Shown here one piece after another: positions 1 to 62,157 of a DNA stretch of 64,000 nucleotides. The notes below the pieces were generated by a model. That model was not told the DNA's origin. It made no database searches and saw only the letters and a program-made list of their open reading frames with translations. Origin of the DNA: Xanthomonas sp. CFBP 8443. GTDB taxonomy: Bacteria > Pseudomonadota > Gammaproteobacteria > Xanthomonadales > Xanthomonadaceae. The DNA is taken from contig NZ_CP102592.1 of the NCBI RefSeq assembly GCF_025666195.1, positions 2,666,001 through 2,730,000 of the forward strand, read 5' to 3'. A program made the position numbers and the translations under genes. The first letter of the stretch is position 1. The number at the start of each line of letters is the position of its first letter.

Positions 1-391
1 GGAATTGCGGTGCGTGGCAGCCGGACATGAATAGGCGCTCAGGAACGACGACGCCGTGCAGGTACAGATAGCGCGCGAGCTCGAATGCGATCAATGCGCC
101 TACACTGTGGCCAAAGAAGGCGAACGGAAGCGCACCCAGCTGCGCGATCGCCGGCGCCATGGCCGGCAGCAGTGCCGCCATGGAATCGATCGGCGGTTCC
201 GCGATCCGCGCGCCGCGGCCCGGTAACTGCACTGCACAGATCTCGATCGCGGGATTCAGTGCGGAACGCCACGGCATGAAGCTGAAGGCGCTGCCGCCCG
301 CGTACGCGAAACAGAACAACCGCATGCTGGGCTGCTGCTGAGCTATGCGCACCAGCCAAGGCGGCGACTGCATGGTAGCGATGCTGTTCAT
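1..391 (-). CDS. Type II thioesterase, NRPS-associated (partial, C-terminus outside window)
   Basis: Stand-alone alpha/beta-hydrolase of the type II thioesterase family, which hydrolyses mis-primed or stalled acyl groups from NRPS carrier domains in the cytoplasm. The 130 visible residues contain the N-terminal FCFAYAGGSA segment (residues 26-35), the LPGRG motif typical of the family (residues 56-60) and the nucleophile motif GHSVGA with Ser96. The Asp and His of the triad would lie beyond the window edge. The ATG overlaps the stop of the upstream NRPS as ATGA, and a GAGG lies 7 nt before the ATG, so it is translationally coupled as the last visible gene of the operon. Family membership is clear; its substrate is not visible. 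Confidence 0.93.
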   Translation of the reverse strand, partial: MNSIATMQSPPWLVRIAQQQPSMRLFCFAYAGGSAFSFMPWRSALNPAIEICAVQLPGRGARIAEPPIDSMAALLPAMAPAIAQLGALPFAFFGHSVGALIAFELARYLYLHGVVVPERLFMSGCHAPQF

Positions 392-3300
392 GGATTCGCC
401 TCAAGTGGTGCGCGCGCAATGCGCCCAGCTGCCTGCGCCGTTTGCGGCGATCGCTCGCTGCGTTCCAGGAACGCCAGGATCGCTGCCGCGACGCGTTCGA
501 CGTGGGGCGCGCGCAACAGCCCGTCATGGTCCGTGTCGATCGCCTGCGTCTCGACAGCGCCGATCTGGATCCGTGCCGGATGCGGATCTGGACCCGACAT
601 CACTACGCTTTCGTTCGCCCAGAACGCCTGGACCGGCACGTCGACCGGATCGGGCCGGAACGCGGATACCAGCGCAAGGTGATGTGCGGTGATCGGAACC
701 TGGGTCTTGAGGTGATCGAATGCTGCGCGGTCGAAGCCGGACAGGCCCCAAGCCAGCAGTTCGGGTGCCGCGCCTGAAAAGTCCGCTTCGAGCAGTCCCG
801 CGATCGCTTCCAATGCAGGCGGCGCCTCTGTGCCGGCCCATTCGCCGGGAGAAACGCCGCTTGCTCGCAATTCGACCAGCGCAGCCTTGCGCAGCAGTTG
901 CTCCTCCGAGCGTGCCGCGTCACCGAAGTTCGTATGCACATCGATCAATCCCAAATAGTCGACGGTATCGCCATTCTCGGCCAGATACCTGGCCGTCTCC
1001 GCGGCGATCAGTCCGCCGGTGGACCAACCCAGCAAGCGGTAAGGGCCAACAGGTTGTGCGGCGCGTATCGCCGTCGCATACGCCATGGCCATGTCCTGCA
1101 TGGAGTCGATGCGCAGCCGCGATCCGGCAACCTCTGGCGATTGCACGCCATAGACCGGGCAGCGACCGGCGAAACATCCCGCCAATGCCCGATAGACAGA
1201 GACATGTCCGCCGACGGGATGGAAGCAAAAGAGCGGCCGCTGCGAGCCGGATGTCTGCAGCGGCACCAGCGATGACTCCGAATGGCGGTCTTGCTCGACC
1301 ATTTCGGCGAGCGCTTTCACGCTTGGAGACGAGAAGATGCTGGCCAGCGGCAGCGAGACGGCGAAACGCAGCTTGATCGCGTGGATCATCCTGATCGCCA
1401 GCAACGAATGCCCGCCGAGCTCGAAGAAGTGGTCGTCGCGCCCGACTTGCGGCAGGTTCAGCAGTTCGCGAAAGATCTGCGCCATCGCCACCTCGGTGTC
1501 GCCGACGGGCGCTTCGTACTCGCGGCTGCCCTGTGAAAGCTGATCGGGTGCAGGCAGCGCTTTGCGATCCAACTTGCCGTTCGGCGTGAGCGGCAACGCA
1601 TCCAGGCGGACGAATGCGCCTGGAATCATGTAGTCCGGCAGATCGCGTCGCAGGTGTTCACGCAGTTCGCCGATAGAGAATCCGTCGTCCGCAGCGACCA
1701 CGTACGCCACGAGACGCTTGTCGCCCACGGAGTGCTCGTGCGCGACCACTACCGCGTCTCGCACCTTCGGGCAAGCTGCAAGCCATGCTTCGATCTCGCC
1801 GAGTTCGATCCGGAATCCGCGGATCTTCACCTGGGAGTCGTTGCGCCCCAGATACTCGATGTTGCCATCGGGCAACCAACGGCCTAGGTCGCCAGTCTTG
1901 TACATGCGCGCCTCCTCGTCGTTCACGAACGGATCGACCAGGAAGCGTTGCGCGGTCAACTCGGCGCGATTCAGATAGCCGCGGGCGACGCCCGGCCCAC
2001 CGATGTGGAGTTCGCCCGAGACGCCAGGTGGTACCGGCTCTCCTTGTTCGTCCAGAATGTAGACATGCGTGTTTGCGATCGGACGGCCGATCGGCACGCT
2101 GCGCCCTGCGGGTGATGCCGTTTCGACTTCGAACGTGGTTGCGATCGTTGTCGTTTCCGTGGGGCCGTAGGCGTTGACCAGATGCTGCGGCGGTCGTGCA
2201 CCGCTCATTAAGCGTGCCGCGTTGCGCGCATCCAGCACATCTCCGCCGACCAGTAGGTATTTCAGTCCTGCAAATGCCGGACCCAGCATCGCCGCATACT
2301 CGTTGAACAGTCCGGTGGTCAGCAGGATCACCGTGACCCTGGCGCCCGTCAGCAGACGGTTCAAGGCATGCGCGTCCATCAGCACGGATTGCGGGATCAC
2401 CAGCAGCCGCGCGCCATTGAGCAACGCACCCCAGATTTCCCAAACCGACGCGTCGAAAGCCGGATTGGAACCATGGCCAACACAATCCGTCGCCGCGATC
2501 GGCGCGTAGCCGCTGTTGATGACCAGCCGCAGGACGCTGCGGTGCTCGACCATCACGCCCTTGGGCTTCCCGGTCGAACCAGAGGTATAGATGACGTAGG
2601 CAAGGTTGCGCGCGGTCAAGCCAGGGATCCTCGGATCGTGCGCATGTTCGAACTGCGCCGAAGACGCGACCTCCTCCAGCGCGAGCACTGGGCGTCCCGA
2701 GGACGCCGGCATCGGCGTACCTTCCTGCAGGCGCGAACGGATCAGCATAGCCACAGGGGCGGAATCTTCGAGCAAGTACGCGAGACGTTCGGCCGGATAG
2801 TTCGGATCCAGCGGCACATACGCGCCGCCTGCCTTCAGCACGCCGAGCAGACCGATCACCATGTCGAAGCTGCGCTCGACGCAGATCGCGACGCGCTCGT
2901 CCGGACGCACGCCCAATGCGATCAATCGGTGCGCCACCTGGTTCGCACGGCGATTGAGTTCGCCGTAGCTCAAGCACCGGCCATCGCACTCCACCGCGAT
3001 CGCATCCGGGTGCTCCGCCGCTTGCGCTTCGAACACTTCATGGATCAGCTGGTCTTGCGGGTACTCGGCACGTGTCGCGTTGAATTCGACCAGGACCCGA
3101 TCCCGGGCCGCCGCGGGCATCAACGGCAGTTGCCGCAGCGGCCGCTGCGGTTCGCTCTCGAGCGCCTCGACTAGCCCATGCACCACCGTTTCCAGATAGC
3201 TGGCCAACGTCGCTGGATCGATTCCCGCGGCGGATTGCACGGTCAAGCGGAATCCTTGCTGCAAATCGTCTACGGATACCGCCAGCGGATAATTGGTGCG

Positions 3301-6300
3301 TTCCTCGCCGTCGACGACGCGAATGCCTTCCCATGCCCGGCCAGTCGAATCGTCCTGGCGCCGCGCTTCGCCCCTGCCATGCCGGTAATTCATCAATGCC
3401 GTAAACAAAGGCAATGGCAGCGGAACGGCAGAGCAGCGCTGCGCCAGCGCCAACGATGCCTGTTCGTGCGTCAGCAATTCGCTCAGGTTGCGATGCGTGG
3501 CGCGTACCATTTCGCCCACGCCCGTTCCTTCGAACGCGATCCGGATCGGCAGGGTATTGATGAACACACCGACCACGCTTTCGGCGTCGAACGAGTGCTG
3601 CATGCGGCCGGACAGCACCGTACCGAACACAACGTCGTCGCGGCCGCTGCACTGGCCGAGGACGCGCGCCCATGCCAGATGGAACAAGGCCGCTGGCGTC
3701 GCGCCCTGCCGCCGCGCCGCGTCGCGGATACGTTGCGACAGCGCTTCATCGAGCTGCACCTGTGCTTCGCCGACAGATCCGCCGTCGCCCTGTACGTTCA
3801 AGACACCGTAGGGCGCGGTGGGTTCTTCGACGTCGCCCAGGCGCTTGCGGAAATACGCCTCGTGCGCTGCATCCGGCACCGTCTGCGCAGAGGCGATGAA
3901 ATTGCGGTACGGCAAGGGTGCGGCCAGAAGATCGCCGCGTCCCTGCATCAACCATCGCATTTCCTTGAGCAGAATCTGCATCGAGTAGTTGTCGTCGATG
4001 ATGTGATGGCTCAACAATGCCAGCATCCACTCGCCCGACGCCGGATCGGCAGCGGTGTATGCCGTCAGCAACGGCGCATACCGAAGATCCAGCCGTATCC
4101 GGCGCGGATCGGTGCGGGCCAGCAACTGCGGTGCCGCTGCGATACCTGCCGCTAGGGCCACTTCTACGATCTTCAAAGGGGCGCGGCGCTGCACGACCTG
4201 CACAGGTCTCGGCAGTCCTTCCCAGTGCATCGAACTGCGCAGGATGTCGTGGCGGTCGATCACCGCCTGCAATGCGCTCAGGAAATCATCCAGCCGCTCC
4301 CGACGATCGAACGTCGCCACCGTACGTACCAGATAGGCGTCTCCCTCGCCTCCGAGCAAGTGATGGAACAGAATTCCCTCTTGCAGCGGTGCCAGCGGAT
4401 AGATGTCCTGCACGTTCGACACGCCGCCGGGTACGCCGGCGACGATGCCGTCGATCTGTTCCTGGCTCAGGCGTACCAACGGCAGCAGCTCTGGCACGAT
4501 CGACGTGGTCTCCGTCGTGATCTGGTTCGGTGCGATGTCCATGCGCTGCGTGGTCTGCGGATCGCCGGCCAGTTGTTCTGCCAGTGCGCACAGAATGGGC
4601 GTCATGAAGACCATGCGCACATCCGCGCGCAGCCCGTGTTGGCGCAGACGCTCGATCAACCCGATGATCAGCAGCGAGTGGCCGCCGAGTTCGAAGAAAT
4701 GGTCGTGCCGGCCGACCTGGGCCAGGCCGAGGAGGTCCTGCCAGATCGTCGCGATCGCTTGTTCGATCTGGCCGACCGGTGCGGCGTAGAGCCGGCTGGC
4801 GACCGCGTCCTGGTCCGGCGCCGGCAATGCCTGGCGATCCAGCTTGCCGTTGGGCGTCAGCGGCAGCGCGTCCAGCCGCACGAACGCGCTGGGGATCATG
4901 TACTCCGGTAAATCGAGTAGCAGGCGTTCACGCAGAGCCGAAGCTGTCACTTCGGCCTCATCCTGCAAAACAAAATATGCCACCAACCGCGTATCGCCTG
5001 CCCCGTCCTCGCGCGCGATCACCACCGCGTCGCGCACGCCTGCGCAGCCAGCCAGCTTCGCCTCGATCTCCCCCAGCTCGATGCGGAAGCCGCGCAGCTT
5101 CACCTGGAAGTCGTTGCGGCCCAGATACTCCAGGCTGCCGTCCGGCAGCCAGCGGCCGAGGTCGCCGGTCTTGTACATCCGCGCATCCGCATCGCCGGAG
5201 AACGGATCCGGCAAGAAGCGCTCCGCCGTCAGCTGCGGACGCTGCCAATATCCCCGGGCCACGCCGCCGCCAGCGACGTGGAGTTCGCCCGTCACCCCGA
5301 TCGGCACCGGCTGGCGATGACGATCCAGCACGTACAGCCGAAGATCCGGCAAGGCAAGGCCAATCAGGCTGCCCCGCGCCTGCCGCACATCGTCTTCCGT
5401 GATCGGCCGGTACGTCGCATGCACCGTGATCTCGGTGATGCCGTACATGTTGACCAATTGCGTGCGCGCGGCCGCATTGCGCGCGAACCACGGCGCCAGC
5501 ATCGGCAGCTCCAGCGCCTCGCCCCCAAAGACCACCACGCGCAGATGGTGCTCGGCCGTGGCCTCCTGTTGCGCCGCCATCAATGCGCGGAACGCGCTGG
5601 GCGTCTGGTTCAACACCGTGACGCCTTCGCGCACCAGCAGCGCATAAAATTCTGACGGCGTCCGCGCGCACAGCGCCGGCACGATCACCAGGCGGCCGCC
5701 ATAGAACAGTGCTCCCCAGATCTCCCAGACCGAAAAATCGAACGCGAAGGAGTGGAACAGGGTCCACACGTCGCTCTCGTCGAAGCGGAACTGCGCGTGG
5801 GTCGTCGCGAACAGGCGTACGACATGGCCGTGCTCGACCATCACGCCCTTCGGTTGGCCAGTCGAACCGGAGGTGTAGATGACGTAGGCCAGGCTGCGCG
5901 TGGTCAGCGCCGGCACCACCGGATCGTGCTCGGGCATGGCGGCCAGCGATGCCTCTGCATCCAGCACCAGCGTGGGGATCGCCACGCTCGATGCCGGCAG
6001 CCGGTCCTGGAGCGCTGCCTGCGTCAGCAGCGCGACCGGCGCACTGTCTTGCAGCATGTAAGCCAGGCGCTCTGCCGGGTAGATCGGATCGAGCGGCACA
6101 TAACCGCCGCCGGCCTTCAGGATGCCGAGCAGGCCGACCACCATGTCCAAACCACGTTCGGCATGGATGGCGACACGGTCGTCAGGCTGCACACCCAGCG
6201 CGATCAGGCGGTGCGCAACCTGGTTGGCGCGGCGATTCAGTGCGGCGTAGCTGAGGGACCGATCGTCGAACTGCAGCGCGATCGCCTCTGGCGTTCGCAT

Positions 6301-17487: not shown

Positions 17488-17686
17488 CTTTCCATCATTC
17501 CTTTCAACAAAATCGTCCAAGCCCTAATGAAGTCGCCGCCCATACCAATGCGGTGCATCAACGTCGCCCAACAACACCACCCCCCTTTCTAAGCCTGGAA
17601 AAGACGTGGCCCTCGCCTGTCACCCAATCCGCGTATGGTCCATCGGTTTGCCTGCCGCCGCCCATCGCGCACCGTATCGGTTCCTC
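17488..17686. other. Gap between NRPS3 and NRPS4
   Basis: 199 bp without a supported gene, the only sizeable break between the NRPS genes. On the transcribed (minus) strand it ends with AAGGA 11 nt before the NRPS4 ATG. I see no convincing promoter and no hairpin with a U tract, so read-through from NRPS3 is the simplest reading. Confidence 0.6.
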
Positions 17687-55400: not shown

Positions 55401-58400
55401 TGACCGGCTGCACCGCGTCGGCCGCCATTGCGATCAACAGCGTCTGCCAATGCCCCAACAGCCGTTCCACGGTGGCGGGCTCGAAAAGGTCCTGCGCATA
55501 CACCAGCGCGCCCACCAGTCCGTCCGTCGTCTCGTTCAGCGACAAGGACAAATCGAATTGCGCGCTAGGCGTGCCCGTCTCTACCATCGCAACGGCGAGT
55601 CCAGGCAATCGCAAGCCGCCATCGCTTGGCGTGTTGTTCAAGCTCAGCATCGCCTGAAACACCGGGCTATGACTCAGGCTGCGCACCGGTTGCACCGCTT
55701 CCACCACCTGCTCGAACGGCAGGTCCTGGTGCGCATAGGCGTCCAGCAGGGTCGTGCGGACCTGCGCCAGCAACTCGGCCACGCTCGGATCGGCACGCAG
55801 GTCCACGCGCAGCGCCAGCGTGTTGACGAAGAAGCCGATCAGCGGCTCGACCTCGGCCCGCTGCCGGTTCGCCACCGGGCTGCCGATCACCACCTGGTCC
55901 TGGCCGCTCAGCCGCGCCAGCAACGCCGACCAGCTGGCCAGCAACGTCATGAACAGCGTCGTGCCGTGGCGTTGCGACAATGAACGGACCGCGTCGACCG
56001 CTTCAGCCGGCAACCGCACGGGCAGGCTGCCGCCGCGATAGCTCATCGACATCGGCCGCGGACGATCGGTCGGCAGTTCGAGCAGCGCAGGCGCGTCGCG
56101 CAACTGGTTCTTCCAGAATGCGAGCTGCTCCTGCAACGCGGTGCCCTGCAGCCAACGCCGCTGCCACGCTGCATAGTCCGCGTACTGGACCGGCAGCGCC
56201 GGCAACGGATCCGCTTCGCCCTGCAGGAAGGCGGTATACAGTGCGCTGATTTCGCGCACCAGGATCCCGATCGACCAGCCATCGGAGACGATGTGGTGCT
56301 GGGTCACCAGCAGCACGTGCTGTTGTGCGGACAGTACCAGCAGGCGTCCACGGATCAGCGGGCCCCGCGCCAGATCGAACGGAGCGCGCGCTTCGGCGAT
56401 GCTCAGTTCGGCCACCGCCCGTTCCTGCGCTATGGCGTCCAACGCGTGCAGGTCATGCACGGTCAGCGCGAACCCGCTGTCCGCCGCTGCGACGGCCTGT
56501 TGCGGCTCGCCCTCGACGCTGACGAAGGTCGTGCGCAGGCTCTCGTGCCTCGCCACCACGCGATCCAGGCTCTTCTGCAACGCGATACGGTCCAAGCCGC
56601 CACTCAACCGCAGCGCTGCGGGGATGTGGTACGCCGCGCCTGCCGCATGGTCGAGCCGATCGAGGAACCACAGCCGTTGCTGCGCCCAGGACAGCGGCAA
56701 CGAGCCCGCACGGTCCACCGGCACGATCGCCTCATGCAGGGAAGCCACTGCCACGGACACGCTCTTGGCCAGCGCTGCCAGCACCGGCTGCGCGAACACC
56801 TCGCGCAACGCCAGTTCCACCCCTAGCGCCGCACGCACGCGCGTCACCAGCCGCACCGCCAGCAACGAATGTCCGCCCAGATCGAAGAAATGGTCGTGAC
56901 GCCCCACCCGCTCCAGGCCCAGCAGATCCTGCCAGATCGTTGCGATCGCCTGCTCGGCCTCGCCTTCCGGTGCTGCGTAGGCGCGGCTCGCCACTGCGTC
57001 CCGATCCGGCGCCGGCAACGCTTGGCGGTCCAACTTGCCGTTGGGCGTCAACGGCAACGCTGGCAAGATCACGAATGCACTCGGCAGCATGTACTCCGGC
57101 AGCGCCTGCGATAGCGCGTCGCGCAGCGCTACGGCCGACGGTTCGGCGCCTTCTTCCGCCACCAGGTAGGCGACGAGTCGTTTTTCGCCCGGCGCGTCCT
57201 CGCGCGCCAACACCGCTGCCTCGCGTACCCCGTCGCATTCGGACAGCCGGGCCTCGATCTCGCCCAGCTCGATCCGGAAGCCGCGCACTTTTACCTGGAA
57301 GTCGTTGCGTCCCAGGTATTCGATATTGCCGTCAGGCAACCAACGGCCCAGGTCGCCAGTGCGGTACATCCGCGCGTTCGCGTCGTCCACGAACGGGTCG
57401 ACCAGGAACCGCTCGGCGGTCAGGTCGGCCCGGTTCAAGTAGCCACGCGCCACGCCCGCACCACCGATATGGAGTTCCCCGGCCACACCGATCGGCACCG
57501 GCTCGCCATACGCGCCGAGCGCATACACCCGGGTATTGGCGATCGGGCGACCGATATGGCCCACGAACCCGCCGGCCCGCGTCATCGCCGTCCACGTCGA
57601 ATAGGTCGTCGTCTCCGACGGGCCGTACAGGTTGGCCACCATCTGTGCCTGGCTCGCGGCGAACACCCGCTCCACCAACGTCCGCTTCAGCGGCTCGCCG
57701 GCCAGGTTCACCGCCGTCACCGTCGCCGGCAGCCCATTGCCGTCCAGCACCGCCGCGATCGCCGAGGGCACCGTATTGACCAGGGTCGTTCCGACCAGCG
57801 CGGGACCTGCCGACACCAGATCCGCGACCAGCCGAACCGTCCGGCCCGTGCTCAGCGGCACGAACAGTTCGAACACCGCTAGATCGAAATTGATCGAGGT
57901 CGACAGCAGCGTCGTCGCCAATTGTTCGACCGAAAAGTTTGCCTGCGCCCACGCCAACAGATTGGCTGCGCTGGCGTGCTCGATCATCACCCCCTTCGGC
58001 CGCCCGGTGGAACCGGAGGTGTAGATCACATAGGCCAGGTGTCGCGATGTCAGCTCCGCGATGCTCGGATCATGGACGGGCTGCGCATCCAGGGTGATGT
58101 CGTCATCCAGCGCCACCACCGCGAGCGCGGTGCCTGCGGGATCGAGCGCGCGGACCGTTTCCACCAGTGCCGCCTGGGTCAGCAGCGCCACCGGTGCGCT
58201 GTCGGCCAGCATGTAGGACAGCCGTTCGGCGGGATAGGAAGGATCCAACGGCACGTAGGCGCCGCCCGCCTTGAGGATGCCCAGCAGCCCCACCACCATG
58301 TCCGCACTGCGTTGCATGCAGATCGCGACACGATCGTCAGGCATGATCCCCAACGCGATCAGCCGGTGCGCCAGCTGGTTGGCACGCGCGTTCAACTCGC

Positions 58401-59919
58401 CATAGCTCAGCCGCCAGTCTCCGCACTCCAGCGCGAGCGCCTGCGGCTGCTGCGCTGCCTGCGCCTCGAACAGCGTGTGGATCGGCACCTCCGGGTACTC
58501 CGCCTGCGTAGCGTTGAACCCATGCAGCACCAATTCGCGTTCCGCTTCGGGCAGCAGCGGCAAGCGCGCAACCAGCTGCGCATCATCGGCGACCAAGCCC
58601 TGCAGCAGGGTCAGCCACGCGCGGCTCAGGCGCTCGACCGTCTGTTGTTCGAACAACGCCTGATCGAACTTGAAGGCGCATCGGATGCCTTCTTCCAACT
58701 CGATCGTCTCCAGCAGCAGGGGAATGGCGTCGTTGGCGCCGCTGCGGCACGCGGGATAGGAGGCCAGCCCGACGCCACCCCACGCGACCGGGCCACCGGC
58801 CTCCATTCCGCCCCACAAGCTGCGCAGGCCGCCGCCGTGCCTGGCGTTCTGGAACACGAACATGGTCTGGTAGAAGGGATGCTGCCCTGCGATCCGCAGG
58901 GGATGCAGGTCTTCGACCAGCAATGCGAAGGGATAGTCCTGGTTCTTCATCCCGCGCAACGCGGTATTGCGCACCGTGCGCAGCGCATCCGCAACGCTCG
59001 CGTCCTGCGGCAACGAGGAGCGCAATACGATCGGATTGACGAAGTCGCCGACCACGCCATCCCACTCGGAACGGCTACGTCCAGGCATCGGCGAGCCAAT
59101 CGAAATGTCGTCCTGGCCGCAATAGCGATGCAACAGGATCGTGTAGGCGGCAAGCAGCGTCGTGTAAAGCGTGCCTGCATGACGCCTCCCCAACGCATGG
59201 AGGCCAAGACTCAACGAAAGTGGGATCGTCAATACGATCTCGCCCAGCTGGCCCGAGGCGGCTGCCAATGGCCGATCCGCCGGAAGCTGCAGGCTCTGTG
59301 CCGCGCCATGCAACGCGTCTTTCCAGTAGGCACGCTGCGCCTGCGCTGCGGGGCCTTGCAACCATTGCGCTTGCCAGCGGACATAGTCCTCGTAGTCTGC
59401 CTCGGCATCCGGCGCCTCCCACTCGACCGCGCCGCTGCCAAGCAGCCCCCCCAGCTCCTCCAGCAAGCGCCAGTAGGACCAGCCATCGACGGCGATATGG
59501 TCGAACGTCAGCAGCAGGATCTGCGTTTCGTCCGCGCGGCGGTATAAACCCGCCCGGACCGGCGGCTGCCGGAAAAGATCGAAGGCCTGCGCGGCATCGT
59601 CCCGCACGCGCTGCAACAAAGCCGCCTCGTCGAGCGACGCGACGTCATCGAGGATCAGCGGCACATCCGCGGAATGCGCGACCGACTGCTCGACTTCCCC
59701 GGCTTGCTCGCGAAAGCGGACCCGCAGCATTGGATGGCGCAGGGCAAGCTGCCGTAAAGCGAGCGCAAGCTGGTCCGGGGCGAGTACTCCGTGGACAGCC
59801 GCAGCGAAGGCGTTGTTGTGGGTACCCTGTGCATCAGGATTGAGCCGATAGAGGAACCAACGGCTACGTTGCGCAGCCGACAGCGGCATCCATGGCCCTG
59901 CCTGCGCATCGTGCTTCAT
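37399..59919 (-). CDS. NRPS1: seven-module nonribosomal peptide synthetase with lipo-initiation starter C domain
   Basis: First synthetase, 7506 aa. Domains: starter C-A-T (Ala, residues ~1-1040), C-A-T (Glx, ~1069-2110), C-A-T (Ala, ~2134-3170), C-A-T (unassigned, ~3190-4230), C-A-T (Pro-like, ~4253-5306), C-A-T (unassigned, ~5325-6377), dual E/C-A-T (Glx, ~6400-7460). The starter C domain begins at the very N-terminus without a docking helix, consistent with a fatty acyl group delivered by the free ACP. Its active site reads DHIAVDG (residues 140-146): the first His of HHxxxDG is Asp, the second (catalytic) His is kept. The ATG overlaps the ACP stop (ATGA) and has AGGA 7 nt upstream. The C-terminal ~35 residues form an acidic tail with LSEEELRAML. 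Confidence 0.97.
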   Translation of the reverse strand: MKHDAQAGPWMPLSAAQRSRWFLYRLNPDAQGTHNNAFAAAVHGVLAPDQLALALRQLALRHPMLRVRFREQAGEVEQSVAHSADVPLILDDVASLDEAALLQRVRDDAAQAFDLFRQPPVRAGLYRRADETQILLLTFDHIAVDGWSYWRLLEELGGLLGSGAVEWEAPDAEADYEDYVRWQAQWLQGPAAQAQRAYWKDALHGAAQSLQLPADRPLAAASGQLGEIVLTIPLSLSLGLHALGRRHAGTLYTTLLAAYTILLHRYCGQDDISIGSPMPGRSRSEWDGVVGDFVNPIVLRSSLPQDASVADALRTVRNTALRGMKNQDYPFALLVEDLHPLRIAGQHPFYQTMFVFQNARHGGGLRSLWGGMEAGGPVAWGGVGLASYPACRSGANDAIPLLLETIELEEGIRCAFKFDQALFEQQTVERLSRAWLTLLQGLVADDAQLVARLPLLPEAERELVLHGFNATQAEYPEVPIHTLFEAQAAQQPQALALECGDWRLSYGELNARANQLAHRLIALGIMPDDRVAICMQRSADMVVGLLGILKAGGAYVPLDPSYPAERLSYMLADSAPVALLTQAALVETVRALDPAGTALAVVALDDDITLDAQPVHDPSIAELTSRHLAYVIYTSGSTGRPKGVMIEHASAANLLAWAQANFSVEQLATTLLSTSINFDLAVFELFVPLSTGRTVRLVADLVSAGPALVGTTLVNTVPSAIAAVLDGNGLPATVTAVNLAGEPLKRTLVERVFAASQAQMVANLYGPSETTTYSTWTAMTRAGGFVGHIGRPIANTRVYALGAYGEPVPIGVAGELHIGGAGVARGYLNRADLTAERFLVDPFVDDANARMYRTGDLGRWLPDGNIEYLGRNDFQVKVRGFRIELGEIEARLSECDGVREAAVLAREDAPGEKRLVAYLVAEEGAEPSAVALRDALSQALPEYMLPSAFVILPALPLTPNGKLDRQALPAPDRDAVASRAYAAPEGEAEQAIATIWQDLLGLERVGRHDHFFDLGGHSLLAVRLVTRVRAALGVELALREVFAQPVLAALAKSVSVAVASLHEAIVPVDRAGSLPLSWAQQRLWFLDRLDHAAGAAYHIPAALRLSGGLDRIALQKSLDRVVARHESLRTTFVSVEGEPQQAVAAADSGFALTVHDLHALDAIAQERAVAELSIAEARAPFDLARGPLIRGRLLVLSAQQHVLLVTQHHIVSDGWSIGILVREISALYTAFLQGEADPLPALPVQYADYAAWQRRWLQGTALQEQLAFWKNQLRDAPALLELPTDRPRPMSMSYRGGSLPVRLPAEAVDAVRSLSQRHGTTLFMTLLASWSALLARLSGQDQVVIGSPVANRQRAEVEPLIGFFVNTLALRVDLRADPSVAELLAQVRTTLLDAYAHQDLPFEQVVEAVQPVRSLSHSPVFQAMLSLNNTPSDGGLRLPGLAVAMVETGTPSAQFDLSLSLNETTDGLVGALVYAQDLFEPATVERLLGHWQTLLIAMAADAVQPVSRLPLLSADERKQVLAGFNATEIDYPRHALIHTLFEAQAAQQPQALALECGDQRLSYGELNARANQLAHRLIGLGVTPDDRVAICMQRSADMVVGLLGILKAGGAYVPLDPAYPAERLAYMLADSAPVALLTQVALVETVRGLRPAGAALAVVALDDDAALDAQPVHDPSVAGLTPRHLAYVIYTSGSTGRPKGVMIEHAPVVNLWTELEHSVFGMLCAEERVALNSSLSFDASVQTLTQLLSGRCVVVIPEAVRIDTGALLQFLSRQRIGAFDCTPAQLRLLLDAGLLEGSVASLKAVLVGGEAIAPSMWRTLSQSASIRIFNAYGPTECTVESTIAVVNGAGEFPHIGRPIANARVYILDARAQPVPVGVAGELHIGGTGVGRGYLNRPDLTAERFLADPFADNANARMYRTGDLGRWLPDGSIEYLGRNDFQVKVRGFRIELGEIESALTACAGVGEAVVLAREDVPGEKRLVAYLVAEEGAEPSAVALRDALSQALPEYMLPSAFVILPALPLTPSGKLDRQALPVPDRAAVASRSYAAPEGEAEQAIAAIWRELLGLKQVGRNDHFFELGGHSLLAVRLVTRVRAALGVELALREVFAQPVLSSLACAIAAAATTAQGAIVPVDRAGILPLSWAQQRLWFLDQLDHAAGAAYHMPAALRLSGTLDRAVLQASLDRVVARHESLRTTFANVDGEPQQMIAPAGSGFALAARDLRELDAVAQEAAIAELSSAEARTPFDLARGPLIRGQLLQLSEHEHVLLVTQHHIVSDGWSIGVLVREVSALYAAFRQGASDPLPPLPVQYADYAAWQRRWLQGAALQEQLAFWKSQLGDAPALLALPADRARPAVQSYRGEHIAVCLPQALSEKLYGLSQRHGTTLFMTLLASWSVLLSRLSGQDQVVIGSPVANRQRAEIEPLIGFFVNTLALRVDLSADPSVAELLARIRAMTLGAYANQDLPFEQIVEALQPERSLSHSPIFQTLLTLNNTGSDALSLPGLLLSTMAAAQQTAQFDLALSLAETTDGLVGSLVYAVDLFDHGTVERMLGYWTTLLEAMVENDAQTVARLPLLSGEERAQVLYAFNATQAAYPQDGLIHGAFEAQAQARPDAVAIEFGGEFLNYGELNRRANHVAYRLIALGVEPDDRVAICAERSIEMVIGLLGILKAGGAYVPLDPVYPSERLAYMLSDSAPKAVLTQSALNDRLPLLASMQCPAIALDDCDTLATQASHDPSVSGLTSRHLAYVIYTSGSTGLPKGVMIEHANAANLLAWAQASFTQAQLSTTLLSTSINFDLAVFELFVPLSVGATVRLVRDLVSATPALAGTTLVNTVPSAIAAVLESSQLPATVRTVNLAGEPLKRALVDKIFASSQAQSVANLYGPSETTTYSTWVEMARADGFAPHIGRPIANTQIYILDGEGEAVPIGVAGEIHIGGAGVARGYLNRPDLTVERFLADPFAPGAGARMYKTGDLGRWRPDGTIEYLGRNDFQVKIRGFRIELGEVEARLAVCANVREAVVVAREDLAGDKRLVAYVVAQDGASAPSIAALREQLAQDLPEYMIPGAFVQLQALPLTPNGKLDRKALPAPDLDAVASRAYEAPVGATEQAIAEVWQELLGLERVGRHDHFFELGGHSLLAVRLVTRLRGALGVDVALRDVFAQPTLSGLARIASSAEASTHGAIEPVDRSAPLPLSWAQQRLWFLDQLDHAAAAAYHIPAALRLSGELHRAALCASLDRIVARHESLRTIFASADGAPHQVIVSEGIGFALLEHDLRAMEASAQAATLAELSAEEARAPFDLAAGPLIRGRLLQLADDDHVLLVTQHHIVSDGWSIALLIRELGALYAAFSQGEADPLAPLPIQYADYAAWQRQWLQGDVLQRQIAFWREHLAGAPALLELPSDRPRPATQSYRGDAVEVRLGQELTGALHALSQRHGVTLFMTLLAGWSALLSRLSGQDEVVIGSPIANRQRAEVEPMVGFFVNTLALRVKLDADPSVAELLAQIKATTLGAYAHQDLPFEQVVEALQPARSLSHSPLFQALLALNNTSADALRLPGLMLSTIDVAQRTTQFDLTLSLVETADGLVGSFAYAVDLFDQATVQRMFGHWTTLLEAMVADDAQSLSRLSLLSLDERQRILTGFNATRVEHPHDKTIHALFEAQAARHPDAVAVECGDGRLSYGELNHRANRLAHHLAALGVRCDERIALCMERGIEMVVGVLGILKAGAAYVPLDSDYPPERLAFMLSDSAPVALLTDTVHAERLSVLNPPRMVVLDGADDRSAIAKHPQHDPQVKELAPHHLAYVIYTSGSTGRPKGVMVEHRQLVASTLARTHAYSKYERFLLLSSIAFDSSVAGIFGTLASAGTLLIPEEVSARDLDAIAALVERLQATTLLCVPSLARLILEHLSRHTERSLREIIVAGETCPPALRDMAASFVPTLTLYNEYGPTEATVWATLYRASAGDGGPVPIGRPVANTRIYVLDRHGALLPVGVAGELHIGGAGVARGYLGRPDLTAERFLADPFSNDADARMYRTGDMGCWLADGNLQYLGRNDFQVKIRGFRVELGEIEAKLSACAGVREAAVIVREDVADDRRLVAYVVAQPGMAPSAAELRMQLSQDLPEYMIPSAFVGLDALPLTPNGKLDRKVLPAPDQSAIASRDYQAPVGDSEQMLAGLWQELLGLKQIGRADHFFELGGHSLLAVRLVARLRAMLGIDVPLRDVFARPILSELAQLVSGATVSSQAAIVPVQRDMALPLSWAQQRLWFLDQLDDGAGAAYHIPTALRLSGVLDQAALQASLDRVVARHESLRTTFVSVDGEPRQTIAPADSGFALTRHDLRELEIVAQAIAVAELSESEARAPFDLACGPLIRGRLLQLAEREHLLLVTQHHIVSDGWSIGVLVREVSALYAAFSQGHADPLPALQLQYADYAAWQRQWLQGDALQTQIGFWRDHLRGVPTLLELPTDRPRPALQRYIGDRAQVRVPEALTAALRTLSARHGATLFMTLLAGWSTLLSRLSGQHDVVIGTPVANRQRAEIEPLIGFFVNTLALRVDLSSAPSVAELLAQIKSTTLGAYAHQDLPFEQVVEILQPERSLSHSPVFQVLLALNNVPAGEAATLPDLALSVVDAAQQTAQFDLALSLTETAEGLVGGLTYAVDLFDRGTVERMLDCWKTLLEAMVAGENQSVARLPLLSASARAQVLTAFNATQSAYPSHETIHAQFEAQAARNPDVIAVEFDGEQLSYGELNRRANRLAHRLMLLGVEPDARVAICVERSLEMVVGVLGTLKAGAAYVPLDPAYPNERLAYVLEDCAPVAVLTQTALRERLLSLHLASSAATWLTLDAAAVLAGQPDHDPCPQGLASDHLAYVIYTSGSTGQPKGVAMPHRALRNLLEWQGVQESEAVEHERVLQFSALGFDVAFQEMFYTLGSGGCLILVNEAVRQDPFELIGFIQAHAVQRIFLPFVALQGLAAAAEHAQAALPSLRNVVTAGEQLFANPVVKAFFATNPACRLHNQYGPTETHVVTALTLSGAPEQWPALPPIGRPIANTQIYILDGEGEAVPIGVAGEIHIGGAGVARGYLNRPDLTVERFLADPFAPGAGARMYKTGDLGRWRPDGTIEYLGRNDFQVKIRGFRIELGEVEARLAVCANVREAVVVAREDLAGDKRLVAYVVAQDGASAPSIAALREQLAQDLPEYMIPGAFVQLQALPLTPNGKLDRKALPAPDLDAVASRAYEAPVGATEQAIAEVWQELLGLERVGRHDHFFELGGHSLLAVRLVTRLRGALGVDVALRDVFAQPTLSGLARIASSAEASTHGAIEPVDRSAPLPLSWAQQRLWFLDQLDHAAAEAYHIPAALRLTGELHRTALRTSLDRIVVRHESLRTIFASADGAPHQVIVSEGIGFALLEHDLRAMEASAQAAALAELSAEEARAPFDLAAGPLIRGRLLQLADDDHVLLVTQHHIVSDGWSIALLIRELGALYAAFSQGEADPLAPLPIQYADYAAWQRQWLQGDVLQRQIAFWREHLAGAPALLELPSDRSRPATQSYRGDAVEVRLGQELTGALHALSQRHGVTLFMTLLAGWSALLSRLSGQDEVVIGSPIANRQRAEVEPMVGFFVNTLALRVKLDADPSVAELLAQIKATTLGAYAHQDLPFEQVVEALQPARSLSHSPLFQASLDLQNTPQGELRMSGLMLAMQETPSPTSQFDLTLSLTELDGALCGVLKYATDLFDRARIERLAGHFEFLLRALVSDPAQRVSALPLLSDAERHQLLVAFNATDADYPRDACIHALFEAQVRERPDAVAVAFEGDRLCYGELNRRANRLAHRLIALGVAPGNRVAICAERNPAMVIGVLGILKAGGAYVPLDPAYPADRLAFMLDDSAPVALLAQSNLSGLAAASNANGAALPLILLDREEMRAEHPAHDPVVPGLTSRHLAYVIYTSGTTGQPKGVMVEHRSLVNYVVDAMRLFGIVPGDMVLQQNSLNFDISVEEMLPALCGGAALAPTSRIFGSDDEAALPLTFVHITAAHWHTLVTQWQRDPGRAQRQLQGLRLINVTGDALSTQKLQVWDALRPPALKLINTYGPTETTVSCTAAYVRYDEFNQAMASATIGRPLANTRIYILDAHLQPVPLGVAGEIHIGGDGVTRGYLNRPQLTAERFLHDPFNADPTARMYKSGDRARYREDGNIEYLGRNDFQVKIRGFRVEPGEIEARLAACAGVREAVVIARVGTAGDRRLLAYIVPHDGAAVSVAALREELLLDLPDYMVPSAFVRLDALPLTPNGKLDRKALPEPDQAALVSREYEAPVGDAESAVAEVWQALLGVERVGRHDHFFELGGHSLLVIGLIEQLRRRGFGTDVRTVFMAPTLSGLTARLSAAVPSRRTDVPPNPITQATVRITPELLPLVRLTQDEIDAFVVAVPGGVGNIQDAYPLAPLQQGILFHHLLERETGGDTYLLCTVAEFDERAQLDAFLAALQRVINRHDILRSAVHWEGLSKPVQVVQRHASLPVHELSLSADTPALAQLLAHTDPGRIRVDLRRAPLLAAHVVRDPATGHWLLALLNHHMVCDHIAQDLILAEIQTLLEGHEDALPPPMPYRDFIARTLAVPEAEHEAYFRERLGDVDEPTAPFGVLNVQADSGGKVEEGRLRLDDALAKRIRDSARREGVTSSVLFHVAWAQVLAQCSGRDDVVFGTVLSGRLQETESTEHVVGMFINTLPIRIRLAEASVADTVRETYRQLGALLSHEQSPLALAQRCSGIQVPLPLFTALFNYRHNLDDAGTVAPAWDGMRVISDEVRTNYPLTMSVDDFGQAFALVVQCGAGIDPERMVGYLAAAIEGLVDALEASPTLPVRSVTALPAFERQRMLFAFNATDTAYPHLATIHGLFEAQAAQQPDADALEYAGDRLSYAALNRRANAVAHRLIAMGVTPGDRVAICAERSLAMVVGVLGVLKAGAAYVPLDPAYPADRLAYMLADSAPMAVLTQAVLRARLPMLDGLDVPAIVLDAEVEETASDLANPVVANLTSRDVAYVIYTSGSTGQPKGVMVEHRSAVNFWQAMTRTTHRSCGPNVRVALNAAFSFDMSLKGLLQLLSGHCLVLIPQAIRASGPALLAFLEEQRIDAFDSTPSQLEGLLSAGLLEPGGHRPRNVLLGGEAIGAGMWERLKASPVVRFHNMYGPTEATVDATIEDIGASVAGPVIGKPLANARIYLLDARGEPVPLGVAGEIHIGGVGVARGYLHRPDLTAERFVKDRFSDDPQARMYRTGDLGRWRADGTLEYLGRNDFQVKIRGFRIELGEIEAKLRGCAGVREAVVIAREDVEGDKRLIAYVVAQEHTELSIASLREELLQDLPEYMIPSACVLLPALPLTPNGKLDRKALPAPDQAAVASRAYEAPAGEIEQGMAAIWQELLNLQHVGRNDHFFELGGHSLLVMQLVIRIREQFHVDVPLRVLFEQPMLSELAGSIGELQREVFLGEDLEHMQNELDSLSEEELRAMLERESINE
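37540..40720 (-). other. Module 7: dual E/C-A-T, Glu/Gln
   Basis: Dual E/C domain opening DAYPLAPLQQGILFHHLL, then ERETGGD; active site HHMVCDH. It should epimerize residue 6. A-domain code DMKDLGMVDK. The carrier FFELGGHSLLVMQL lies before the C-terminal docking tail. Confidence 0.84.
37553..39329 (-). repeat. Glx A-T cassette, copy 3 (module 7)
   Basis: Partner of copy 1 over A and T, lying in the neighbouring gene. Copies 2 and 3 share variants against copy 1 (for example codon choices near 35150 and 38520), suggesting they exchanged sequence most recently. Confidence 0.9.
40790..43945 (-). other. Module 6: C-A-T, unassigned substrate (code DIEHNTTVSK)
   Basis: C domain near-identical to that of module 4. 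The A domain has SGTTG, FDISVEEMLP and NVTGDALS; residues read DIEHNTTVSK. It is a sister of module 11. The carrier GGHSLLVIGLIEQLRRRGF precedes a dual E/C domain, so residue 6 should be D. The substrate is unknown to me; a basic side chain is one possibility because of Glu239. Confidence 0.8.
42883..44790 (-). repeat. A-subdomain/T/C cassette, copy 1 (modules 5/6)
   Basis: 1908 bp near-identical to 49288-51195 at a constant offset of 6405 bp. It runs from the C-terminal part of the module 5 A domain through the carrier into most of the module 6 C domain. The upper border falls exactly after the A-domain core, at IGRPIANTQ. Confidence 0.9.
44000..47160 (-). other. Module 5: C-A-T, proline-like
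   Basis: C domain with HHIVSDG. The A domain has LQFSALGFDVAFQEMF and residues DVQFVAQVVK, close to Pro codes (DVQFIAHVxK). The start DVQF and the FxVxFQE region support Pro; Gln322 is less usual. The C-terminal A subdomain and carrier are near-identical to module 3. Confidence 0.78.
47230..50350 (-). other. Module 4: C-A-T, unassigned substrate (code DSACIAEVWK)
   Basis: C domain with HHIVSDG followed by WSIALLIRELGAL. A-domain core FDSSVAGIFG, CVPSLARL and VAGETCPP; residues read DSACIAEVWK. The Ala301-Glu322-Val330 pattern also occurs in Tyr and His codes, but I cannot assign a substrate. Carrier FFELGGHSLLAVRL; the next C domain is normal, so the residue should stay L. Confidence 0.8.
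49288..51195 (-). repeat. A-subdomain/T/C cassette, copy 2 (modules 3/4)
   Basis: Partner of 42883-44790. The flanking A cores (Ala in module 3, Pro-like in module 5) are unrelated in detail, so the repeat is a shared backbone around different substrate cores. Confidence 0.9.
50410..53520 (-). other. Module 3: C-A-T, alanine
   Basis: C domain with HHIVSDG; A-domain code DLFNNALTYK, the same as module 1. From IGRPIANTQIYILDG onward the A domain, the carrier and the following C domain are near-identical to those of module 5/6, although the substrate cores differ. Confidence 0.85.
53590..56715 (-). other. Module 2: C-A-T, Glu/Gln-like
   Basis: C domain with HHIVSDG. A-domain residues read DAQDLGAVEK, close to DAQDLGVVDK (Gln) and DAKDLGVVDK (Glu). 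A10 is LTPSGKLDR instead of LTPNGKLDR. The A domain differs from the three copy-related Glx domains of modules 7, 8 and 10, so it was acquired or diverged separately. Confidence 0.82.
56790..59900 (-). other. Module 1: starter C-A-T, alanine (N-acylated)
   Basis: The starter condensation domain (SAAQRSRWF; DHIAVDG) differs from all others in the window and sits downstream of a fatty acyl-AMP ligase and ACP, so it should N-acylate residue 1. A-domain residues read DLFNNALTYK, which I recall as an Ala code. The carrier reads FFDLGGHSL (Asp for the usual Glu), phosphopantetheine Ser1018. Confidence 0.86.
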
Positions 59920-60200
59920 GCATCGATCCTGCGATCATGGTTCGGCCGGGCCGGCATGGCATCGAGCACGCCAAAATGCGAGTCAAGGAACTGCGCCAGT
60001 TCGCGAATGCTGGGATGGTCGAACAGCCATTCAAGGTCGACCTCCAAGCCTAGCGACTCTTCGAGCTTGCGGGTCAGGCGCAAACCGATCAGCGAATCGA
60101 CCCCTTGCTCGGCGAAGGTCCGTGTCGCCGAGATCTGCGCCACATCGACCTCCATCAATTCCGACAACGCATCCTTCAGCCACAGCTCGCGCGCACTCAT
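59916..60200 (-). CDS. Free-standing acyl carrier protein for lipo-initiation
   Basis: Acyl carrier protein of 94 aa. The GVDSLIGLRL motif gives Ser36 as the phosphopantetheine site, and the helix after it (TRKLEESLGLEVDLEWLFDHPS) is typical of ACPs. It should accept the fatty acyl chain from the adjacent acyl-AMP ligase and present it to the starter C domain of NRPS1. The frame also opens with TTG at 60203; the ATG at 60200 is preferred, with GAGGAG 9 nt upstream. Its stop overlaps the NRPS1 start (ATGA). It lies about 117 bp after the ligase gene. Confidence 0.95.
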   Translation of the reverse strand: MSARELWLKDALSELMEVDVAQISATRTFAEQGVDSLIGLRLTRKLEESLGLEVDLEWLFDHPSIRELAQFLDSHFGVLDAMPARPNHDRRIDA

Positions 60201-60284
60201 CAATCACCGCTCCTCAACCTTGAGAAAAACGCCAAAGCCACCCACGACGTGACAAACAGCAAATCCTTTGAGATGCACTCGCAT

Positions 60285-60302
60285 GACCGCGTACACGCGG
60301 TC
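60285..60302. other. Perfect hairpin between ligase and ACP genes
   Basis: gaccgcgtacacgcggtc is a perfect inverted repeat (8-bp arms around 2 nt, or 7-bp arms with a 4-nt loop), 16 nt after the stop of the ligase gene. No U tract follows on the transcribed strand, so it is not a standard terminator. It might be an attenuating or RNA-processing hairpin that sets the ratio of ligase to downstream genes, or chance. Confidence 0.45.
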
Positions 60303-60317
60303 GATCAGCTGCCGATA

Positions 60318-61973
60318 TCAATGCGCCGCGACGCGCTCCAACTCACCAGACAGGTAGTCCATCCGGCATTGCATCCGTCGCACCTTGCCGCTCGAGGTCC
60401 GCGGCAACGCACCAGGCTTGAGCAGCACGATATCCGCTACCGGCAACCCGTATTCGGCATTGACTGATGCGCGCATCGAACCGACCACAGCGGGCAAGTC
60501 GGGACGGCGCCGCAGCCATTCACGCTTGAGTTCGAACACCACCACCAGCCGTTCCCCCTCCACGTCGCTTATGCCGAAGGCGGCACCGCCGGCTTGGCGC
60601 AAGGCTTCGTGGCTTTGCTCGCACCTGTCTTCGATGTCCTGAGGTGCGTACTTCCTGCCGTTGACGATGATCAGATCCTTGAGGCGTCCGGTCACGTACA
60701 ACTGGCCATCGAGCATGAAGCCGAGATCACCGGTACGCAGGTGACCGGGGCCGGCACCGTCTATCCGCGCGTGGAAAACACGCTGGCTCAACTCCGGCCG
60801 CATCCAATAACCGTGCGCGACGCTGCCACCCCTGACCCATATCTCCCCCTCCTGCCCTTCCGCCATCCTTGACGAGGTCTCGGGATCGACGATCTCGATG
60901 CGCGCATCGCCACGCGGCGACCCGCAGCCCACCACCTCTGCGCCGCCATGCCGACGTAGCGTCGGCGCAGCGCCGACCTGCACGCCGGTGATCAGCAACG
61001 TCGATTCCGCCATGCCATAGCAGGGATAGAACGCCTCTGCGCGGAAGCCATGTGCCGCAAATCGCTGCGTGAATCGGTCAATGACGCCGGCGCGGATGGG
61101 CTCGGCTCCGCAGAACGCCACACCCCATGAAGACAGATCGACCCCAGCGATGGCTTCGTCCCTAACCGTGCGTGCGGCCAGATCGTACATGAAGTTCGGA
61201 CCACCACTGACAGTGATGCGAAACTCGGAGATGACGTGCAACCAGCGCTCCGGATACTGCACGAACTCGGCAGGCGACAGGAAGCTCGCCGAACATCCGG
61301 AATACATGAACTGCAGGACGCCGCCAACCAGCCCCATGTCGTGAAACAATGGTAGTGCAGTAAATAAACGTGATTCGCCTGTGATTTCCATCCCATCTTG
61401 AATCGCAGCACAATTGTCTACGAGATTTCCATGGGTGACGACGACGCCTTTCGGATCCCCGGTGGAGCCAGAGGTATATTGAAGAAAAGCAGGTGTCGAT
61501 ACTTCCACGCGCGCGGGCTCCCATTGTGCGGCGCACACTGGGTCCGCGAACGTTTCCACAGGTTCGCGCATATCGATTCTGAGCAGCGCCTCATCCCCCA
61601 CCGCCAACTCCGCCTGTAGAAACTCGTCGGAATCGAAGATGATCGCATGCGCGCCGGCATCATGGACGATGATTTGTAGACGATTTTGCGAATTCTGCCG
61701 GCGTGGCGGAGAGGCGGGAACGGCGACGACGCCCGCAAGCAGGCACGCATAGAAGGCGACAACAAAGTTCTGTTGCGATTTGCATACGAGCACAGCACGC
61801 TGCTGCGCAAGGCCCTGCGCCTGAAACTTGCGGGCCCAGCCCGACGCGCGCTCCCATAGCGCACCAAACGTCATGAGCTCATGCGCAAGCGCAGGCCCCT
61901 TGAAAAAGCGGCAGGCGACGTCGTCCGATTTCAACTGCGCACGCTGGAGCACGATCTCGGGAAAACTCTGCAC
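60318..61973 (-). CDS. Fatty acyl-AMP ligase (FAAL), lipopeptide initiation
   Basis: ANL-family enzyme of 551 aa that should adenylate a fatty acid and transfer it to the adjacent ACP. Visible motifs: YTSGSTGDPKG (residues 166-176), the FAAL-typical LPLFHDMGLVGG, YGMAESTL, and RTGDLGF...GRLKDLIIVNGRKYAPQDIE near the C-terminus, with the catalytic-loop PRTSSGKVRR at the end. Length fits FAAL. The frame opens at GTG 61979, but AAGGAG (61988-61983) is only 3 nt from it and 9 nt from the in-frame GTG at 61973, so I place the start there. It is the first gene of the minus-strand operon. Chain length cannot be predicted from sequence. Confidence 0.95.
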   Translation of the reverse strand: MQSFPEIVLQRAQLKSDDVACRFFKGPALAHELMTFGALWERASGWARKFQAQGLAQQRAVLVCKSQQNFVVAFYACLLAGVVAVPASPPRRQNSQNRLQIIVHDAGAHAIIFDSDEFLQAELAVGDEALLRIDMREPVETFADPVCAAQWEPARVEVSTPAFLQYTSGSTGDPKGVVVTHGNLVDNCAAIQDGMEITGESRLFTALPLFHDMGLVGGVLQFMYSGCSASFLSPAEFVQYPERWLHVISEFRITVSGGPNFMYDLAARTVRDEAIAGVDLSSWGVAFCGAEPIRAGVIDRFTQRFAAHGFRAEAFYPCYGMAESTLLITGVQVGAAPTLRRHGGAEVVGCGSPRGDARIEIVDPETSSRMAEGQEGEIWVRGGSVAHGYWMRPELSQRVFHARIDGAGPGHLRTGDLGFMLDGQLYVTGRLKDLIIVNGRKYAPQDIEDRCEQSHEALRQAGGAAFGISDVEGERLVVVFELKREWLRRRPDLPAVVGSMRASVNAEYGLPVADIVLLKPGALPRTSSGKVRRMQCRMDYLSGELERVAAH

Positions 61974-62157
61974 GACCACCCTCTCCTTGAGTACGCTTCA
62001 TTTTCCTGACGCATCTTGAGCTAGGGCATTGGACAAACAGCGGCAGCAGTAGCTGCAACGCTAGGTTCCAAACTGGCTGAAGAGGCCTTCCCCCGGGGCG
62101 GCCCGCAGAATATCGAGGGGCCAGCCCATCACTCCGATTTACTTTTCCACCGATATC

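Follow-up and report, generated by a model that had tools for sequence, protein, structure and literature searches.

Here we describe a nonribosomal peptide synthetase (NRPS) locus in a window of 64,000 nucleotides from Xanthomonas sp. CFBP 8443 (positions 2666001-2730000 of the 5,238,480-base contig NZ_CP102592.1; coordinates below are positions in this window, and negative numbers lie to the left of its start). The locus holds an intact line of 18 modules that is started by a fatty acyl-AMP ligase (FAAL) and an acyl carrier protein (ACP), and genes for an acylase of the penicillin amidase family and for an ABC exporter of cyclic peptides lie beside it. It is rather likely, as read here from genes alone, that the peptide is acylated, assembled, exported and then deacylated in the order described for pyoverdine, and the finished peptide probably carries no acyl chain. 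As a wider but tentative proposal, the acylase and the exporter could form a general acylate-export-deacylate cassette, found in the family and in some other Proteobacteria and attachable to many NRPS lines. It would here serve non-lipid, acidic 14- to 18-mers containing diaminobutyrate (Dab) and His, with a fixed core and with heads and tails changed by module duplication and by swapping between sister species.

The NRPS line consisted of four uninterrupted minus-strand open reading frames (ORFs), N1 to N4, which together with the FAAL and ACP genes lay within 388-61979. N1 (37399..59919, 7506 amino acids) carried modules 1-7, predicted to add Ala-Gln(/Glu)-Ala-His-Pro-D-Dab-Glu; N2 (27546..37406, 3286 amino acids) carried modules 8-10 (D-Glu-Val-Glu); N3 (17687..27562, 3291 amino acids) carried modules 11-13 (D-Dab-Asn-Glu); and N4 (388..17520, 5710 amino acids) carried modules 14-18 (Ser-Thr-Ser-D-Thr-aliphatic) and a thioesterase (TE). 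The TE domain at the C-terminal end of N4 (388..1260, minus strand, the boundary at 1260 being approximate) had the motif GWSTGG of the Ser type and shared 48% identity with the TE region of the compared genome G014 and 45% with that of G018 (G000 denotes the genome of the window itself and other G-numbers denote compared genomes). The FAAL, predicted to load the starter acyl chain (60318..61979, minus strand, 553 amino acids), matched PF00501 with 222.5 bits and PF23024 with 32 bits against a cut-off of 27. Its best solved relatives were 7r7f ('Polyketide synthase', E = 4.5e-131) and then 3kxw ('Saframycin Mx1 synthetase B', E = 5.7e-100), both presumably FAALs, followed by proteins named fatty-acid-AMP ligase FadD23, FadD32 and FadD28. 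The stand-alone ACP (59916..60203, minus strand, 95 amino acids; PF00550, 60.4 bits) had the active-site motif GVDSL, and a homologue adjoined the FAAL in G014 (87%), G018 (82%), L023 (61%), L024 (56%), L025 (54%) and L026 (51%).

Searched with PF00668, the complete 5.24-Mb genome yielded 18 condensation (C)-type domains; every one belonged to the cluster, and none was interrupted by a stop. All 18 adenylation (A) domains could be aligned, and each of the 18 carrier motifs was LGGHSL. The FAAL and the stand-alone ACP adjoined module 1, which began with a starter-class C domain, and this is the arrangement by which a FAAL/ACP-initiated NRPS line is recognised. An earlier sequence-only reading had held that the FAAL, ACP, starter C domain, 18 A domains, single TE and carrier motifs were all present and intact in uninterrupted ORFs, and the data bore this out. 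The span it gave (388..61973) was too short at both ends, where cluster-like genes reach at least from -4563 to 66670. When 40000-62000 was compared with plasmids by blastn, no site matched over 80% of its length, and a search with the FAAL against phages gave 50 records, with all matches below 60%.

The acylase gene (62459..64897, plus strand, in the window to 64000) encoded 812 amino acids and started 479 bp from the FAAL start in the divergent direction, and the exporter gene (64916..66670) came next, to its right. The acylase scored 739.1 bits against PF01804 (cut-off 21.3), which placed it in the penicillin amidase family of N-terminal nucleophile (Ntn) hydrolases, and it kept the catalytic motifs of Ntn acylases (Ser257, His279, Asn and Arg). 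The exporter scored 374.2 bits against TIGR01194, above the cut-off of 286.2.

The distribution of this pair was investigated in 297 genomes of the family, which were searched with each gene; scoring was confined to the 3-4 best candidates of each genome, and second copies may be missed. Homologues of the acylase (E <= 1e-130; weakest E = 5.6e-227) were found in 20 of the 297 genomes, as were homologues of the exporter (E <= 1e-100; weakest E = 7.9e-166). The two sets of 20 genomes were identical, and the two genes were neighbours in every one of them. NRPS A or C domains lay within the stretch read at 17 of the 20 pairs (G000, G014, G018, G244, which was read as contig C38 of the genome of L023, and 13 more). 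The stretches read at the pairs of G159, G180 and G277 showed only CmlA-like genes and type II TE genes, the pairs of G180 and G277 being on contigs shorter than 10 kb. A close FAAL (E <= 1e-130) was present in nine of the 297 genomes, all inside the set of 20, and in eight of the nine it was divergent and about 1.3 kb or less from the acylase; in G169 it was on a different contig. Three of the 32 plasmid records with a match were read from outside the family, as examples and not as a count. Alteromonas plasmid pAMDE1 carried the pair (acylase 44.5% identical) within an NRPS cluster, with a neighbour annotated 'cyclic peptide export ABC transporter', and the Methylomagnum acylase relative (37.3%) lay near a PvdA-type monooxygenase gene, a TauD gene and an NRPS. 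The Azospirillum relative (37.6%) had no NRPS annotated within 12 kb. This last case, and the many substrates on which PF01804 enzymes act, would suit an unrelated housekeeping or quorum-quenching acylase that is a neighbour by chance. However, a chance neighbour should not share the same 20 genomes with the exporter, always beside it and with NRPS domains in the stretch read at 17 of the 20 sites, and we consider such a coincidence hardly credible.

Within the genus, the pair was also seen beside quite different NRPS lines in G011 (L132), whose line had five DLPRVGHVGK codes, and in G006 (L136), whose line had five DATKVGEVGK codes; neither genome gave a FAAL match at E <= 1e-60. Xanthomonas sp. 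GW (P0055) had a 59% identical acylase. The authors describing a 'novel' NRPS cluster that is unique to strain GW suspected a broad bioprotection or antifungal activity (PMC7479056).

In the order of steps that we propose, the FAAL would activate a fatty acid and load the ACP, and the starter C domain would couple the acyl chain to Ala1. The 18 colinear modules, from N1 to N4, would extend the acyl-peptide, with Dab supplied by the cluster's own aminotransferase and with one or more residues probably beta-hydroxylated by a CmlA-type diiron enzyme and a TauD dioxygenase. The TE would then free the chain, linear or cyclised, the TIGR01194 exporter would carry it to the periplasm, and a periplasmic acylase would take off the acyl chain and leave a non-lipid, Glu/Dab-rich peptide. 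Because the acylase keeps its Ntn motifs and the exporter is always adjacent in these genomes, the pyoverdine order is the simplest reading. The gene content, codes and domain classes of the line and the linkage of acylase, exporter and NRPS are observed; from them we infer that this acyl chain is the one removed by the acylase, and likewise the site of cutting, the residues targeted by the hydroxylases and the final form of the product. The acylated peptide foreseen by the sequence-only reading fits the FAAL-started line, but it is probably an intermediate only, given the divergent acylase and the exporter outside the span considered there.

Several observations weigh against this order. The acylase scored 86.7 bits against the PvdQ model NF051460, far below the equivalog cut-off of 950, and orthology with PvdQ was rejected. 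Its best solved relative was the D-succinylase 7eby (E = 7.6e-73), so that fatty acyl chains may or may not be its preferred substrates, and its periplasmic location looks plausible from an N-terminus that was judged by eye to be hydrophobic and signal- or anchor-like. At 11 of the 20 pairs there was no close FAAL, so the pair is independent of this FAAL, and one of the 20 acylases (that of G277) had one in-frame stop. A Rugamonas locus (L121/L122) had the FAAL, the ACP and the CmlA-type and TauD genes, with no acylase in about 10 kb upstream of the FAAL. Finally, acylated glidonins inhibit their own producer and GdnD cuts the chain, which the authors interpreted as detoxification, comparing it with Tem25 (PMC10587159). 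By analogy, the fatty acid here could stay on an active lipopeptide, and the acylase could protect the producer by inactivating lipopeptide that re-enters the cell or is in surplus; the two ADOP/MacB-like permeases encoded beside the exporter, which are kept in G014, G018 and G146, would fit such self-protection. However, the acylase adjoined the exporter in all 20 genomes, and a pure detoxification enzyme need not accompany an exporter; moreover, the GdnD gene lies about 1.0 Mb away from the glidonin cluster (PMC10587159). Self-protection is therefore an explanation that we find unlikely, though one of some weight.

If acylation followed by export and deacylation is indeed the order, 'lipopeptide' labels from genome mining name the wrong end molecule, and a mass spectrometry search for the acylated ion would miss the product. 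The acylase-exporter pair would then be a sequence handle with which to find NRPS products whose fatty acid is a mere biosynthetic handle. Why a fatty acid should be added and then removed has been called an unanswered question even in the case of pyoverdine (PMC6206403), and the family of lines described here would supply replicate natural cases of such attachment and removal.

The alignment-derived A domain codes matched the residue list of the sequence-only reading at every position that it had named, and they supported its 18-module FAAL-started line. They also refined it, since position 2 was of Gln type, positions 7, 8, 10 and 13 were of Glu type, position 4 was read as His, and positions 6 and 11 were read as Dab. 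The predicted peptide supported by the codes is Ala-Gln(/Glu)-Ala-His-Pro-D-Dab-Glu-D-Glu-Val-Glu-D-Dab-Asn-Glu-Ser-Thr-Ser-D-Thr-aliphatic (Val/Ile/Leu), the residues at positions 4, 6, 11 and 18 being the least certain. Its calculated monoisotopic mass as a linear, deacylated and unhydroxylated 18-mer with Gln2 is 1940.91 with Leu18 (doubly charged ion at 971.46) or 1926.89 with Val18, and about 2123.08 if a C12:0 chain is attached; each hydroxyl would add about 16, and cyclisation would subtract 18. A1 and A3 had DLFNNALTYK and A18 had DAWLLGATIK, which we take to be an Ala code and an aliphatic (Val/Ile/Leu) code, respectively. DSALIAEVWK in A4 is a reported His code with which beta-hydroxylation is accepted, and the codes of A9 (DAWWLGGTFK) and of A14 and A16 (DVWHLSLVDK) are of Val type and Ser, respectively (PMC12283262). 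DVQFVAQVVK in A5 is listed as Pro and DFWNVGMVHK in A15 and A17 as Thr (PMC9113097), and DATKVGEVGK in A12 as Asn (PMC3547906). A2 (DAQDLGAVEK) was read as Gln type; the near code DAQDLGVVDK has been reported for both Glu and Gln (PMC12283262). A13 (DAKDLGVVDK) was read as Glu type and has eight residues identical to a surfactin A1 code, which is given as Glu/Asp (PMC10548584), and A7, A8 and A10 (DMKDLGMVDK) were read as Glu type by nearness to A13. The five carboxylates suggested earlier are thus conditional, since there are four Glu codes and one Gln/Glu code, at position 2.

A6 (DIEHNTTVSK) and A11 (DVEHNTTVTK) were read as Dab, and a text search of the literature gave no paper for the code EHNTTV. 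The Dab aminotransferase gene (-4563..-3253, left of N4) scored 640.0 bits against PRK09264, diaminobutyrate transaminase (cut-off 438), and 619.2 bits against EctB (cut-off 552.2). In a locus comparison that kept only matches above half length and 28% identity, this gene was present at all four loci with an EHNTTV code (G000; G014, 93%; G018, 86%; G146, 76%) and was not found at the four loci without it (G006, G011, G287 and G324; 60-80 kb read each). The four EHNTTV-positive loci are mutually related and so represent fewer than four independent cases. Dab at positions 6 and 11 was assigned from this linkage and from the resemblance of the EHNTTV codes to syringomycin-type Dab codes. The Dab listing of Royer 2013 was the third basis.

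Pairwise identity sorted the 18 C domains into three classes. The starter C domain of module 1 (58531..59889, minus strand; PF00668, 262.9 bits) was 22-39% identical to the other 17 and had DHIAVDG in place of HHI(V/I)SDG. Thirteen ordinary C domains had 62-98% mutual identity. The domains C7, C9, C12 and C18 were 55-67% identical to each other and 22-29% identical to the rest, with an N-terminal HHL-x(4-6)-GD, which we take to be the extra histidine motif of dual condensation/epimerization (C/E) domains. By identity class and motif, dual C/E-type domains were thus located in modules 7 (39313..40626), 9 (32658..33983), 12 (22775..24100) and 18 (3103..4413), all on the minus strand, and residues 6, 8, 11 and 17 were read as D, in agreement with the D positions proposed earlier. 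Stand-alone E domains were considered and rejected: there were none, and the four divergent C domains are of the dual C/E type.

A FAAL at E <= 1e-150 was found in three of 20 genomes of the genus (G000 itself; G014, 89%; G018, 81%). The G014 line had 16 modules, read as Ala-Ala-His-Pro-D-Dab-Glu / D-Glu-Val-Glu / D-Phe-Asn-Glu / [DAWLLGCTFK]-Ala-Ala-Gln, and the G018 line had 14, the same as G014 through residue 12 and then [DAWLLGCTFK]-Ala; the G018 acylase was 97.6% identical to a protein attributed to Xanthomonas sontii. The Phe residues in G014 and G018 came from DAFTVAAVWK, which we take to be a Phe code. This agrees with the list of Royer 2013. In G146, a genome from another genus of the same family (acylase source name Agrilutibacter solisilvae), a line of about 15 modules, with ORFs split in places, read Ala-Val-His-D-Thr-D-Dab-Glu / D-Glu-aliphatic-Glu / D-aromatic-Asn-Glu / aromatic-Ala-Gln. 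Common to the four lines were the core His-Pro/Thr-Dab-Glu-Glu-aliphatic-Glu-X-Asn-Glu, with Dab read in all four (G000, G014, G018 and G146), and the gene boundaries after Glu modules, while heads and tails varied. The tail Ser-Thr-Ser-D-Thr-X was found in the window line alone and was absent from G014, G018 and G146. The codes read in G014 and G018 included neither Ser nor Thr, which rules out a Thr lactone as a feature common to the family.

In self-blastn, modules 14-15 and 16-17 (4669..17355, minus strand) emerged as two copies of a Ser-Thr pair that was duplicated recently. The matches were 97.5% for 4669-6331 against 11116-12778, 97.0% for 6367-8511 against 9556-11701, and 92.6% for 6367-10953 against 12763-17355, and the protein identity was 100% for A14/A16 and 96% for A15/A17. 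The three DMKDLGMVDK A domains (7, 8 and 10) were 98-99% identical in protein. With orthologous lines of 14, about 15, 16 and 18 modules, these data suggest module gain in progress. Elsewhere in the line, the DNA of 42876-44801 and 49281-51205 (modules 3-4 and 5-6) was 98.8% identical, A3 and A5 had their C-terminal part in common, and C4 and C6 were 86% identical, a pattern suggestive of gene conversion or of the duplication of part of a module.

The two hydroxylase genes lay to the left of N4, the TauD dioxygenase gene at -1500..-439 and the CmlA-type diiron hydroxylase gene at -3150..-1561; the best solved relative of the CmlA-type protein was 8a90 ('Non-heme diiron monooxygenase', E = 2.6e-177), before CmlA 4jo0 (E = 2.5e-89). 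These genes, together with the His code that accepts beta-hydroxylation, the Dab codes and the several Glu codes, raise the question of a metallophore, in which beta-hydroxy-His, other beta-hydroxy residues and Glu carboxylates would bind iron or another metal. Such a product would presumably resemble corrugatin-type peptides. The PvdA-type monooxygenase and TauD genes by the Methylomagnum acylase relative point the same way. However, none of the 18 A domains had a recognised hydroxyornithine code, and the 74 TonB-receptor plug domains found in the genome were all more than 60 kb away from the cluster, the closest at contig position 2796820. A siderophore was rejected as the first choice on this lack of a TonB receptor in or beside the cluster, and we regard a metallophore as quite improbable. 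With regard to the hydroxylases, the line of G324, which is accompanied by a 66% TauD relative, gave no His code as read, and none appeared in the eight modules seen of the Rugamonas line (codes Gly-Glu-aromatic-Asn-DIWQITVDDK-Glu), which has both hydroxylases.

The other flanking genes were as follows. A type II thioesterase gene (-442..391, of which 1..391 is in the window; minus strand, 277 amino acids; PF00975, 157.8 bits) lay on the left side, and a beta-N-acetylglucosaminidase-family gene lay beyond the Dab aminotransferase gene. On the right side, the two ADOP/MacB-like permeases (66849..69535) were followed by an ABC ATPase (69565..70281), all on the minus strand. The divergent intergenic region between the FAAL and acylase genes (61980..62458, no strand assigned) contained, by alignment, a block conserved in G000, G014 and G018, CGATTTACTTTTCCA.CGATATCTTG ... 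CGTGTATATA.CCGCGACGGAA, which is likely to be a shared promoter or operator. The genome had two PF01648 (phosphopantetheinyl transferase-family) genes. Farther out, the left flank (L103 2529-6260, window -17471 to -13740) held an HlyD-type gene and a gene pair for a histidine kinase and a response regulator, and the right flank (72147-79444) held genes for a response regulator and for outer-membrane efflux, followed by genes that by eye resembled those of a resistance-nodulation-division (RND) pump.

A locus of this type has been seen in pieces before. We take the gene names staM and syrP used for it to denote a CmlA-type gene and a TauD gene, respectively. In the draft genome of X. sacchari NCPPB4393, daT, staM and syrP were reported in one locus, together with the code DAWLLGCTFK and with A domains assigned to Dab, Val, Glu, Phe, Asn and Pro (Royer 2013; PMC3849588). 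The G014 and G018 lines carry exactly DAWLLGCTFK, have the same kinds of genes, and contain codes that we read as Dab, Val, Glu, Phe, Asn and Pro. However, the X. sacchari data as given there were spread over separate draft contigs and included neither an order of modules nor a predicted peptide, and the main text of Royer 2013 (PMC3849588) never mentions FAAL, PvdQ or penicillin. The window line differs from those of G014 and G018 in its tail and in having Dab where they have a Phe-type code. No product for this locus was found in the open-licence literature searched. The earlier statement that the peptide matched no known product thus holds for those papers, although the type of locus had already been seen in pieces in X. 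sacchari in 2013.

META-B clusters of Xanthomonas share with the window long continuous C-A-peptidyl carrier protein lines (16-17 modules), a starter C domain, dual C/E domains, an ABC transporter, StaM and a Dab gene (PMC3849588). However, META-B of X. albilineans has dihydroxyphenylglycine (Dpg) genes, an AraC regulator and MbtH (PMC3849588), and its predicted peptides differ from that of the window. Neither Dpg nor AraC genes were among the flank ORFs scanned with Pfam, which were part of all flank ORFs. Since the whole genome gave no match to MbtH (PF03621), the locus does not fit META-B, and membership was rejected.

Telomycin, with Tem25, and the glidonins, with GdnD, resemble the window system as NRPS lipopeptides with an acylase, Tem25 being encoded in the cluster and GdnD outside it (PMC10587159). 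Both enzymes were taken by the authors to serve detoxification or self-resistance (PMC10587159), and they are likened to the window acylase by description only. Pyoverdine precursors carry an acyl chain, are moved out most probably through PvdE and lose the chain to PvdQ, so that an acyl precursor passes by ABC export to the periplasm and to an Ntn acylase (PMC6206403), the order proposed here. The differences are the other peptide, the lack of a receptor near the window cluster, and the distance of the acylase from the PvdQ equivalog model. Parts of a related locus and the principle of acylation followed by deacylation were known before; the window adds an intact 18-module line with a probable acyl handle and deacylase.

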